A DNA stretch of 15,347 nucleotides from the NCBI GenBank assembly GCA_016788945.1, contig JAEUSA010000020.1:1-15347 (forward strand). Direction: 5' to 3'. The notes under the pieces were generated by a model. It was not told the origin of the DNA, ran no database searches, and saw nothing but the letters and a program-made list of their open reading frames with translations. A program made the position numbers and the translations under genes. The stretch is from Leptospiraceae bacterium. GTDB taxonomy: Bacteria; Spirochaetota; Leptospiria; Turneriellales; Turneriellaceae. Position 1 is the stretch's first letter. Each line of letters opens with the position of its first letter. Of this stretch, positions 476 to 2,805 are shown piece after piece.

Positions 476-565
476 GTATGCTGTAAATCATATAATTAGG
501 TATTTAGCGAAATAAAGAATCTATAATGGTGCATCCGGTTGCTGTTGCGGATTTCCATAGCTATG

Positions 566-1276
566 TTAGTTGAGCACGAACCGGACTCGCTCGTAATATT
601 TGACCACGATCGGCTTTCCCGGTGGTCCAATCGATGGCTTAAAGCGTTGGGCTTTGTACGTGCGGGCCGCGGCTTCATCGAGACCCATACCGAGCTTCTT
701 GCCGACGGGTTTGGCGCGCAACACCTTGCCGTCTTCTGCAATGACAATTTCGAGCGTTACTGCACCTTCAATGCCGGCGCTGCGTGCTTCGGCGGTATAT
801 TGCGGGCGCACTTCAGGTGAAAGGTCAACGGGCATGGTGGCTCCACCGACGGCCGCGTTGACGGCGGTGGCGATGCGCGGGTCGTCTTTATTCGGGTCGG
901 GTGGAGTTTTATCTTTAATGAACTCATTGCCGAAGACTTCGTCGACTTCTTCGCGTGGCTTCGCGGGTTTCTTTTTGAAAGGCTGCACGACGTCGCCGAA
1001 GTCGACGGTGACCGCGAGTTTATCGAGCTCAGAATCGTCGGGACTCCAGTCGAATTTGACCACGGTGACGACGAGGCCGAAAACCAGCAGCAAGGCGCCG
1101 AGCCATACGCTCTTATGCCGGCTGATCCACGGAATCAGCTCGTAGTTCTCAAACGTGTTTGAGAGACCCGGGTAAACGAGACGGCCATCGGCAAGGCGGA
1201 TGCCGTCAGTGCTGACGACGCCTCGCCGCGATGAGCGCTTGGTAGAAACCGGCGGCAGTTGTGCGGCGGCTGTCAT
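566..1276 (-). CDS. tonB: Energy transducer TonB
   Basis: This 236-residue protein would carry the proton-motive energy harvested by ExbB/ExbD to outer-membrane receptors. It has a cytoplasmic N-terminus of about 55 residues, one membrane span at about 56-74 (SVWLGALLLVFGLVVTVVKF), a short basic/proline linker (KKKPAKPREE, about 101-110) and a TonB C-terminal domain at about 150-236. Recognisable C-terminal motifs are RPQYTAEARSAGIEGAVTLE, the EDGKV turn, LDEAAARTYKAQRFKP and GKPIVVKYYERVRFVL. The periplasmic linker is short and lacks the long Pro-Glu/Pro-Lys repeats of E. coli TonB. The start ATG (complement of 1274-1276) lies 9 bp past the exbD stop, and the sequence AGGA overlapping that stop is a plausible ribosome binding site, so exbD and tonB look translationally coupled. 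A TolA-type protein is less likely because of the C-terminal motifs. Confidence 0.92.
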   Translation of the reverse strand: MTAAAQLPPVSTKRSSRRGVVSTDGIRLADGRLVYPGLSNTFENYELIPWISRHKSVWLGALLLVFGLVVTVVKFDWSPDDSELDKLAVTVDFGDVVQPFKKKPAKPREEVDEVFGNEFIKDKTPPDPNKDDPRIATAVNAAVGGATMPVDLSPEVRPQYTAEARSAGIEGAVTLEIVIAEDGKVLRAKPVGKKLGMGLDEAAARTYKAQRFKPSIGPPGKPIVVKYYERVRFVLN

Positions 1277-1285
1277 GGGGTAATC

Positions 1286-1714
1286 CTACTTACCTTTCTT
1301 CGCCGAATCAACGGCGAGGCCGACTTTGCTGATGCCGGCGAGTTTGACATCGTCTAAGACCTTAAGCATGTCGCTGTACCGGGTGTCTTTTTCCATGCGC
1401 AAAATAACGGCAACGTCGGGTTGCGCTTTTTTAGCCGCCGTCAGGCGCGGTTGCAGCGTCGTGAGGTCTTTGACCTCTTTATCGCCGAGATAAACTCTGC
1501 CGTCGGGTTTGATCGAGATCGCGACCTTGTGCGGTTCGCGCTTCATTGCCACGGCGTTCACCTTTGGCAGCTGAATCGGAATCGTGCGGTACTTGGTGAA
1601 CTCGGCGGTGACCATGAGAATAATCACCAGCACGAGCATAATGTCGACGAGCGGAACGACGTTGATGTCGCCGATGACTTCGTCGCCGCTGTCGTTGCCT
1701 ACTTTTGCAGCCAT
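1286..1714 (-). CDS. exbD: Biopolymer transport protein ExbD
   Basis: At 142 residues this is the normal ExbD/TolR length. The N-terminus contains INVVPLVDIMLVLVIILMVT at about 17-36, the single membrane span with the conserved aspartate (D24) that carries protons in this family. The rest is the periplasmic domain, with KVAISIKPDGRVYLG and VILRMEKDTRYSDMLKVLDD, both typical. It works in the inner membrane with ExbB and TonB. The ATG begins one base after the exbB TAA stop with only a weak purine-rich stretch before it, so translation is probably coupled to exbB. TolR is the alternative, but the neighbouring tonB and receptor favour ExbD. Confidence 0.93.
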   Translation of the reverse strand: MAAKVGNDSGDEVIGDINVVPLVDIMLVLVIILMVTAEFTKYRTIPIQLPKVNAVAMKREPHKVAISIKPDGRVYLGDKEVKDLTTLQPRLTAAKKAQPDVAVILRMEKDTRYSDMLKVLDDVKLAGISKVGLAVDSAKKGK

Positions 1715-1715
1715 A

Positions 1716-2564
1716 TTAAACTACTTTATTTCCGCTGCGCGTTGCGCGACGCAGCGCGACAATGATGTTCGTTACTTCTTCAGAGTTTGACATTTTGCGT
1801 TTGATAACTGACGAGAAGTAGTTGAACAGCATCACGCACGGTATCGCAACGCCCAGACCCATGGCAGTGGCGACGAGCGCTTCAGAGATGCCTTTCATCA
1901 CCACCTGCGGACCTGCATCGGCAGCACCCGCAAGATCGCGGAAGGCTTTCATGATGCCGAGAACTGTGCCCAAAAGGCCGATGAACGGAGCATTGTTGCC
2001 GAGAGTCGAGAGAATCGGCAGGCGTGCGCTGAGGTAACGGCGCTCAGCGACCGTTGCGGCGTTGGCGTAAGATTGAATGGTGTCTTCGTCGTGCTGCCAG
2101 CCTTTGAGTGTCACTGCAGTGATGCGGCCTTCGACGCCGAATTTGTCGGTAGAGACTTCTTTCGCGAGATCTTCGCCGGTAGCCGGGTTTTGGCTGAGTT
2201 TTTCGGTGACGAGGCGTACGAGTTCGGCATTGGCCGATTTACTGTGCATCAGCACCCACAACCGTTCTGCGCCGATTGCCATAGCGACGAGAAACAAGAC
2301 GATCAGAATCCACAGCGCGGGGTCTTTGCTCTTAAAAATATTTGCCTCGCCGGCCTCGGCAAAGGCTGCAGCTTCTTTGTTACCTTCAGCGCCCAGCGGT
2401 GCGGCTTCAGTGGTTGGTGCGGCGCCCGGTGTCGGAGTTGCCGCAGGGGCGGCTACAGGCGCGGGTTTCGCAGCCTGGGCAGTCAGTGACATGGTCGTAA
2501 AAACCGCGCCTATGGCGAGTATCATCAGCAGTAGGGTGTTGCGGTTAGTGAGGTTTTTGAACAT
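1716..2564 (-). CDS. exbB: MotA/TolQ/ExbB proton channel protein ExbB with cleavable-looking N-terminus
   Basis: The 282-residue product is the proton-channel partner of ExbD and TonB in the inner membrane. Residues 1-31 look like a signal peptide (hydrophobic about 11-23, possible cut after AQA), followed by an Ala/Pro/Thr-rich stretch at about 32-58. Membrane spans are seen at about 83-103, 182-208 and 230-250. The family signature LPILSTLGNNAPFIGLLGTV lies at about 182-201, with GIMKAF after it and GISEALVATAMGLGVAIP at about 225-242. The long N-terminal extension resembles ExbB forms with an extra periplasmic region rather than the short E. coli ExbB. Translation starts at the complement of 2562-2564 with AGGAGA (complement of 2569-2574) five A residues upstream. 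That site sits directly 3' of a 17-bp inverted-repeat stem in the leader. It is the first gene of exbB-exbD-tonB. Confidence 0.93.
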   Translation of the reverse strand: MFKNLTNRNTLLLMILAIGAVFTTMSLTAQAAKPAPVAAPAATPTPGAAPTTEAAPLGAEGNKEAAAFAEAGEANIFKSKDPALWILIVLFLVAMAIGAERLWVLMHSKSANAELVRLVTEKLSQNPATGEDLAKEVSTDKFGVEGRITAVTLKGWQHDEDTIQSYANAATVAERRYLSARLPILSTLGNNAPFIGLLGTVLGIMKAFRDLAGAADAGPQVVMKGISEALVATAMGLGVAIPCVMLFNYFSSVIKRKMSNSEEVTNIIVALRRATRSGNKVV

Positions 2565-2578
2565 TTTTTCTCCTATTA

Positions 2579-2737
2579 GGACTACCCAAAGGCCTACAAC
2601 GCCGTCTCAGCAACGGCGCAGCGGAAGAGGGAGACCGGCCTTGGCCGCCCGTGAGCGATTCGCATACGAATCGCGAGGTCTCCTGCTTCTGTGCAGGCCT
2701 TTGGGTAGTCCCGCATATAGAGGTGCATCAGCACCCC
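2579..2737 (-). promoter_or_regulatory. Highly structured exbB leader (17-bp inverted repeat enclosing several hairpins)
   Basis: GGACTACCCAAAGGCCT at 2579-2595 is perfectly complementary to 2695-2711, enclosing 99 bases. Inside are a 6-bp stem (2600-2605 with 2613-2618), a 7-bp stem GGAGACC/GGTCTCC (2630-2636 with 2677-2683, extendable by four pairs across a 2x2 internal loop), a GGCC-TT-GGCC repeat (2637-2646), and an 8-bp hairpin with a 4-base loop (2655-2662 with 2667-2674). A further 5-bp hairpin (2722-2726 with 2731-2735) lies upstream in the exbB direction. As exbB mRNA the large stem would end four bases before the AGGAG ribosome binding site. A structured regulatory or stabilising leader is the favoured reading; a MITE-like element with terminal inverted repeats is possible, though I saw no target-site duplication. 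No known riboswitch class was recognised. Confidence 0.6.
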
Positions 2738-2770
2738 AGCCCCACAACCATCCCAGAAAACGCAACATAT

Positions 2771-2805
2771 TGTAAATTGTAAATTTAGCTAATTAACTAA
2801 TTAAC
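2771..2805. repeat. AT-rich tandem repeats between divergent genes
   Basis: TGTAAAT occurs twice back to back (2771-2784), and TAATTAAC occurs twice back to back (2790-2805). The stretch is much richer in A and T than its surroundings and lies between the divergently transcribed exbB and the gene at 2938. It is the most likely place for promoters or an UP-like element, and the duplicated words could be operator sites. On the minus strand TACAAT within this stretch is a fair -10 candidate, but I could not find a convincing -35 partner. Confidence 0.4.

Follow-up and report, generated by a model that had tools for sequence, protein, structure and literature searches.

The window, that is, the whole 15,347-nt stretch of DNA analyzed here, carries the genes exbB, exbD and tonB. 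In the region that separates the start of exbB (2564) from a divergently oriented ORF (2938), the minus strand contains an elaborate hairpin at 2712-2578. The coordinates of the features are shown in Table 1. We designate the genome to which the window belongs as G000 and the compared genomes by other G numbers; L numbers are loci.

Table 1. Coordinates of the features at the exbB locus and of the candidate operator sites. Positions are those of the window unless a locus or contig is given.
Feature	Position	Strand	Basis or remark
exbB, MotA/TolQ/ExbB family	1716..2564	minus	Pfam; SD AGGAG
exbD	1286..1714	minus	Pfam
tonB	566..1276	minus	Pfam
Whole element, 135 nt	2578..2712	minus	orientation of the covariance model, equal to exbB sense
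P1 outer stem (21 bp), 5' arm	2692..2712	minus	inverted repeat, fold, alignment
P1 outer stem, 3' arm	2578..2598	minus	inverted repeat, fold, alignment
P2 inner stem (4 + 7 pairs), 5' arm	2677..2689	minus	fold, alignment
P2 inner stem, 3' arm	2624..2636	minus	fold, alignment
H1 hairpin, 8 bp, loop TATG	2655..2674	minus	within P2
Junction stretch TCACGGGC	2647..2654	minus	diverged from core CTGCTAAAGCG of many other copies
H2 hairpin GGC CAAG GCC (3 bp)	2637..2646	minus	within P2
P5 hairpin, 8 bp	2599..2619	minus	third hairpin, before P1 closes
Separate small hairpin, 7 bp	2720..2737	minus	upstream in leader; outside family model
34-bp conserved block, palindromic operator candidate plus presumed promoter	2767..2800	minus	upstream of exbB, three genomes
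Palindrome TTAGCTAATTAACTAA, operator candidate	2785..2800		sequence search
TTAGYTAATTARCTAA candidate operator sites, window	2785-2800, 496-511		
TTAGYTAATTARCTAA candidate operator site, L081	1501-1516		
TTAGYTAATTARCTAA candidate operator site, L082	1501-1516		
TTAGYTAATTARCTAA candidate operator site, G000:C402	6471-6486		L142 region
TTAGYTAATTARCTAA candidate operator site, G004:C1	195850-195865		

Folding of the exbB leader

The outer stem includes 17 uninterrupted perfect pairs (2579-2595 with 2695-2711), as an earlier sequence-only reading of this DNA had described, and it belongs to a wider inverted repeat (2579-2598 with 2692-2711, 20 nt at 95%). No longer perfect inverted repeat with a span of up to 250 nt is present in the window. 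The same reading claimed further stems with arms of 6, 7 and 8 bp and one more hairpin upstream. The nested stems and the upstream hairpin, with its 7-bp stem, were recovered, but the lengths of the nested stems proved to be 4 + 7, 8, 3 and 8 bp.

As had been supposed, the nested folding exceeded chance. The minus strand of 2540-2780 folded with -110.3 kcal/mol, compared with -78.8 +/- 4.8 for its shuffles (z -6.6), and the plus strand of the hairpin region gave z -7.7; on either strand none of 200 shuffles was as stable. Since the plus strand folds strongly too, the exbB-sense strand is not singled out by this signal. For the element itself, the energy was -84.3 kcal/mol in exbB sense and -81.3 for the complement.

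The outer stem ends 3-4 nt before the AGGAG of exbB, in good agreement with the four bases given before. When 79 leaders of the window and of sampled stretches were compared, the exbB leader had the most stable SD-adjacent fold (the -84.3 kcal/mol mentioned above), and one of the other 78 leaders had a longer helix (29 vs 21 bp). SD-adjacent helices of at least 12 bp were found in 13 of the 79 leaders and thus are not rare in these genomes. It had been proposed that UCCU of an opened stem could pair with AGGA of the ribosome binding site. We rejected this switch, because holding the long stem's 5' arm open costs about 28 kcal/mol (from -109.9 to -81.6).

No tRNA was found in the leader hairpin. 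The Rfam search of both strands of the window gave nothing above the gathering cut-off (best E 0.25, an unrelated family). By eye, we noted and considered a short upstream ORF that passes through the hairpin.

Upstream region of exbB in related genomes

A search of 60 relatives for ExbB gave clear orthologues in G004 (86%), G001 (86%) and G009 (68%). The 34-bp block upstream of exbB consists of the palindrome TTAGTTAATTAGCTAA plus TTTACAATTTACAATAT; it was identical at 33 of 34 positions both between G004 and G000 and between G004 and G001, and it was absent from the G009 leader. Downstream of the block the leaders aligned poorly. The G001 leader continues for about 40 nt after the block without the large stem, the G009 leader also lacks the stem, and in the G004 leader an unrelated hairpin of 13-14 bp stands in the same position. 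The covariance model R3, which is described below, gave no match in the three orthologous exbB loci available (L003, L004 and L005). As far as these sequences can be compared, the hairpin is not a conserved exbB leader, and the earlier suggestion that a folded leader regulates the TonB module did not stand up to this comparison. We rejected a riboswitch or attenuator, since the available exbB orthologues show no conserved stem upstream, nothing in Rfam matched and no terminator was found.

The 34-bp block is presumably a promoter with an operator; a sigma-70 consensus scan of the exbB upstream region found no promoter. The whole hairpin lies downstream of this presumed promoter block and is therefore probably transcribed in the exbB mRNA; a start of exbB transcription downstream of 2695, by which the stem would never be transcribed whole, is not indicated.

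Perfect matches to TTAGCTAATTAACTAA occurred only in G000, G001 and G004 among the 21 genomes searched, once in each and upstream of exbB. With 1-2 mismatches, the operator palindrome also precedes a Porin_O_P gene (or a relative of it) in the same three genomes; G004 has a further such site in the gap from tonB to a TonB-dependent receptor gene. The TTAGYTAATTARCTAA palindrome joins the exbB-exbD-tonB, Porin_O_P and TonB-dependent receptor genes into a candidate small regulon. Judging from the aligned upstream regions, it is the operator palindrome, not the hairpin, that is the conserved feature in front of exbB.

Behind tonB in the window, a copy of the palindrome with 3 mismatches was seen by eye (496-511). 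Another palindrome, GCTATGGAATTCCATAGC, lies upstream of the exbB block of G004 (L003, approximately 1221-1238) and occurs at many places in G000, G001 and G004. A search of a plasmid collection gave a best match of E 0.6, and exact 16-mer matches in five stretches of viral contigs were taken as chance.

Dispersed relatives of the hairpin

The sequence-only reading named a small inverted-repeat mobile element with scattered copies as its main alternative. By blastn, no second copy of the window element was found in its own genome (94% complete) or in 60 relatives; the best match beyond the window copy in these 61 genomes had an E value of 0.027. The structure models, in contrast, detected dispersed relatives in the genomes of the genus, and the alternative gained support, the copies being visible only by such models. 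A covariance model made from the window copy alone (R1) gave full-length matches, among 41 genomes, in G001 (67 bits, E 1.4e-10) and G005 (65.4 bits, E 2.7e-10), both of the same genus, and one match in 54 sampled stretches (716 kb), which was in G004 (36 bits, E 9.7e-5). These matches sit away from exbB: one place is flanked by ORFs that we read as mnmE-like and yggS-like, another follows an ArsR/methyltransferase-like ORF. A single chance palindrome was rejected, since structural relatives were found.

The model R2 (E<=0.1) gave at least 11, 9, 15, 10, 52, 23 and 9 matches in the seven genus genomes; these counts are lower bounds, because at most 84 candidates per genome were scored. Beyond the genus, at least 2 matches were obtained in G009 and at least 1 weak match in G016, and none among the candidates scored in the other 30 of the 39 genomes. 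With R3 at E<=1e-4, at least 10 of 392 phylum genomes had matches. They were the seven genus genomes, G009, G016 (weak) and G040, that is, at least 3 of 385 genomes outside the genus. In this search only 9 candidates per genome were scored, with stricter filters than for R2, so that absence elsewhere in the phylum is not firm. Some of the G040 copies were identical or nearly so. The window copy scored 134 bits with R2 and 96 bits with R3, both of which were built including it. On the evidence of these models, the family is present in all seven genus genomes searched and sporadic beyond the genus.

In 400 kb of sampled G004 DNA, R3 matched 9 places, of which two (L123 and L125) came from a repeat that is about 160 bp long and more uniform. 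There was no R3 match in 20 pieces (184 kb) of the own genome, and therefore copies are not dense there. Rfam gave no match above the gathering cut-off for L202, L203 and L130. In the open-licence literature, among the matches listed, no title or abstract opening named such a family in Leptospira or Turneriella, and the matches listed on dispersed palindromes and ERIC-like elements did not name this family.

Some copies were located exactly at contig ends (C289 and C290 of G000, C8 and C15 of G040). Draft assemblies may therefore break at copies, and the counts in drafts may be low.

Structure and sequence of the copies

Family copies are about 85-160 bp long and consist of an outer stem as terminal inverted repeats, an inner stem, a hairpin next to which the junction core is in part conserved, and often one further hairpin; their termini are of the GAGTCTGTTGAAAAA type or the GGGGNTGTCTAAAAAG type. 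We analyzed 79 copies, which are part of 132 R2 matches and were picked mostly by score. They derive from 83 matches in a set of 83 loci, from which opposite-strand matches in L202, L203 and L246 and a second match in L251 were removed. Four of the 83 loci had no match at the cut-off used (L264 and L265 from a core-motif search, L271 and L275 from the R2 search), and R3 later matched all four.

In an alignment of the window copy with the three R1 matches, 95% of the cells paired and 30 of the 51 pairs were changed on both sides. The covariation was 0.768, compared with 0.281 +/- 0.043 for shuffled data and 0.183 for the best slid control. The alignment A7 comprised 62 of the 79 loci, chosen by score (2746 cells). 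Here 91.1% of the cells were paired, and 50 of the 244 unpaired cells were at one doubtful pair. Differences from the commonest pair were found on both sides in 825 cells and on one side in 33, and the covariation was 0.594 vs 0.148 +/- 0.006 after shuffling and at most 0.102 with slid partners. The alignments A4, A6 and A7 were fitted to the model structure and so favour pairing; the slid control and the copies found by the core motif alone make this less of a worry.

The model-free alignment of four orthologous pairs of copies counts against the family and gave a mixed picture, in which 11 stem pairs were changed on both sides and kept and 34 were broken (kept/broken 4/4 in L235/L270, 0/2 in L230/L251, 4/18 in L204/L214 and 3/10 in L266/L280); L204/L214 and L266/L280 are 57-59% identical, which is too diverged for safe alignment. 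Most likely, the copies preserve a branched shape while differing from one another at most of their stem bases.

The core CTGCTAAAGCG was found within 2 mismatches in 51 of the 79 copies on one strand, in 1 on the other strand and in 3 in shuffled sequences. Grouping of the 79 copies by blastn gave clusters of 20, 12, 8, 3, 2, 2, 2 and 2 copies and 28 singletons. For the window copy, blastn gave no neighbour in this set, and its core is degenerate; its membership therefore rests on the structure model.

For the comparison of strands, the tRNA-spacer loci L256, L282 and L207 were left out, which gave 76 copies. Under Watson-Crick-only folding of the model strand, single stem mismatches were A-C in 48 cases and G-U in 16 (p 7.7e-5). 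This excess reversed on folding of the other strand and pointed the same way in each of the four cluster groups; a control with 21 tRNAs (2 A-C and 0 G-U mismatches) was uninformative. The strand opposite to the model had a lower energy by 4.3 kcal/mol on average, and the model strand was lower in 13 of the 76 copies. These comparisons suggest that, in the family, constraint acts on the strand opposite to the exbB mRNA. Against this trend, it is the exbB-sense strand that folds better in the window copy.

Insertion sites and genomic place

The element was absent at the orthologous site of another species in five pairs of loci (L245/L096, L228/L128, L250/L110, L210/L121 and L221/L102), R3 at E<=0.1 giving no match in L096, L110, L121, L102 and L128. 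Some of these element-free sites hold other short hairpins. In four further pairs (L204/L214, L230/L251, L235/L270 and L266/L280), the site was occupied in both species.

Flanking repeats were analyzed at 92 copies (the 79 loci and 15 further loci, minus 2 with short flanks). Exact 4-bp repeats flanked 5 of the 92 copies, compared with 0.6 expected (0 of 2000 shuffles), and were absent at the other 87, the window copy included. The five copies are L268 and L269 of the own genome, L239 of G004, and L294 and L296 of G040. Among copies with complementary ends, 4 of 58 had such repeats vs 0.55 expected (p 0.002). Repeats of 2, 3, 5 and 6 nt showed no excess, so that 4 is the sole one of five lengths with an excess, and repeats at loosely offset ends gave a weak signal (4 of 79 vs 1.4 expected, p 0.04).

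Convergent gaps held 27 of 59 intergenic copies, compared with 27 of 162 background gaps of at least 60 nt (p 2.9e-5); the test used simple ORF calling, and 19 ORF-overlapping loci and 1 edge locus were left out to give the 59. Many copies lie within 30 nt of a stop codon. Between tandem genes the copies showed no preferred orientation (9 vs 12). No bias between replication arms was found (by hand count, the positive-skew arc had 14 copies on the plus and 15 on the minus strand, the other arc 9 and 14). A T-tract (at least 5 T in 8 nt) followed the element in 5 of 79 copies on one side and 3 of 79 on the other. An intrinsic terminator was rejected, since a T-tract is lacking and no terminator-like site was found in 2540-2960.

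Discussion

We consider it probable, with good confidence, that the hairpin upstream of exbB belongs, as one copy, to a dispersed family of palindromic, non-autonomous DNA elements resembling MITEs. The shared branched architecture, the scattered copies, the filled and empty sites, the 4-bp repeats at a few copies and the excess in convergent gaps support this reading. The interpretation given by the sequence-only reading is, as a whole, partly supported.

MITEs of insertion sequences are likewise small, have terminal inverted repeats and no evident coding capacity, and the 4-bp repeats at some copies may fit them as well. The copies described here are small and non-coding with terminal inverted repeats, dispersed, and present or absent at orthologous sites; they differ from MITEs in that the internal branched structure is kept while the stems vary on both sides. 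According to a review (PMC2229807), ERIC/IRU (127 bp) and Correia/NEMIS (about 107 and 155 bp) resemble the family in size, in being dispersed and palindromic, in their filled and empty sites, and in forming long stem-loops when transcribed. ERIC and NEMIS, however, were described by their sequence, in enterobacteria and Neisseria, whereas branched structure unites the copies here. REP/BIME/REPIN elements (PMC3733652) resemble the family in lying mostly downstream of genes and in gaps where the neighbouring genes are convergent or unidirectional, but they are 20-40-bp palindromes with a GTAG or CGTC tag, while the copies here are branched and, at 85-158 bp, longer.

REPs have RAYT tyrosine transposases as a partner. 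Integron attC sites are similar to the family in that structure is kept as sequence varies and one strand folds better; the element here differs in being dispersed, with a continuous outer stem and without end boxes. Taking the boxes as RYYYAAC and GTTRRRY, both were present in 0 of 158 strand-ends and either in 4, and an attC site was rejected because the boxes are lacking at the element ends.

In a MITE-like family, copies would be moved in trans by a transposase or recombinase, and the folded single strand most likely matters either for movement or for tolerance after insertion. The window copy would have entered the exbB leader after the split from the two nearest relatives. Given the position of the conserved promoter block upstream of it, the element would be part of the exbB mRNA as a stable, non-switching stem that ends just before the ribosome site. 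By analogy with ERIC and NEMIS, of which insertions are reported to have effects on mRNA stability, with a proposed RNase III cleavage (review PMC2229807), its effect in the exbB mRNA is likely to be passive, through mRNA decay, RNase III cleavage or the rate of initiation. The TonB module itself is probably controlled at the level of transcription, via the conserved palindromic operator.

A dedicated cis-regulatory leader RNA of exbB-exbD-tonB, namely a riboswitch, an attenuator or a switchable stem, seems very improbable to us. The very stable fold directly before the SD, the presumed promoter upstream by which the hairpin is probably transcribed, the unrelated hairpin at the same place in G004 and the slightly better folding of the exbB-sense strand against the family trend would all suit such a leader. 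It is contradicted by the missing stem in G001 and G009 and the lack of R3 matches in the three orthologous loci, by the location of the hairpin's relatives at other loci, by the lack of an Rfam match, by the cost of opening the long stem, and by the usually better folding of the opposite strand in the family. The excess in convergent gaps and the many copies close to stop codons could instead mean that the family is a functional RNA at the 3' ends of genes, a bidirectional terminator or stabiliser similar to REP/BIME and kept by selection, with the window copy as a 5'-leader outlier. The sites occupied in two species agree with this, as do the few one-sided pair-keeping changes, as if both strands mattered. 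We regard it as unlikely, though it retains some weight: no T-tract follows on either side, no orientation is preferred between tandem genes, one strand folds better in most copies, and the empty sites, like the exact 4-bp repeats, suggest that copies were gained by insertion.

The same strong excess of two-sided over one-sided pair-keeping differences is what one-step conversion of an arm would give. That is, the perfect arms might be kept by template-switch correction of quasi-palindromes rather than by selection, the elements being old, inert insertions. This gives no reason for keeping the junction core, or for the better folding of one strand, and we think it quite improbable. It is conceivable, as a tentative idea to which we give a rather low probability, that the family is recognized by the shape of the folded strand and not by its sequence, the stems being free to vary if both arms change together and the core being largely kept. 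Integron attC sites and IS200/IS605 ends are recognized by folded-strand shape. If such recognition were true here, one type of element would fit leaders, possibly tRNA-cluster spacers and even riboswitch-like sequence.

These findings have some general meaning. The sequence search missed a repeat family of which structure models found members in all genus genomes searched, and a striking single-copy leader hairpin may thus be a scattered element. The many two-sided base differences and the lack of an Rfam match make the family a testable case of structure-kept mobile DNA. For this spirochaete TonB module, the probable control, an operator common to a porin gene, can be set apart from a hairpin that is merely carried in the mRNA.

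Several minor observations were made. The more uniform repeat mentioned above, about 160 bp long with copies 74-91% identical, was seen at L231, L241, L251 (2787-2947), L123 (15934-16094), L125 (1845-1989) and L115; it was weakly matched by R2 or R3 in L251, L123, L125 and L115, and is perhaps a younger branch of the family. Weaker family matches were present in tRNA-cluster spacers of three genomes (L256 1501-1627, L282 1501-1628 and L207 1501-1621), and these may be old copies or merely structured spacers. In the own genome, an element copy at L212 (1139-1359) overlaps a cobalamin-riboswitch-like sequence (RF00174, 31.2 bits; cut-off 31.5), and the counterpart of this site in G004 (L118, 8774-8935) has an unrelated perfect palindrome instead. 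In L135 of G004 (222-371), two inverted palindromes of the GTAGAGACGCCC type lie 98 nt apart and have many partial relatives in G004; this pair looks like a REPIN.
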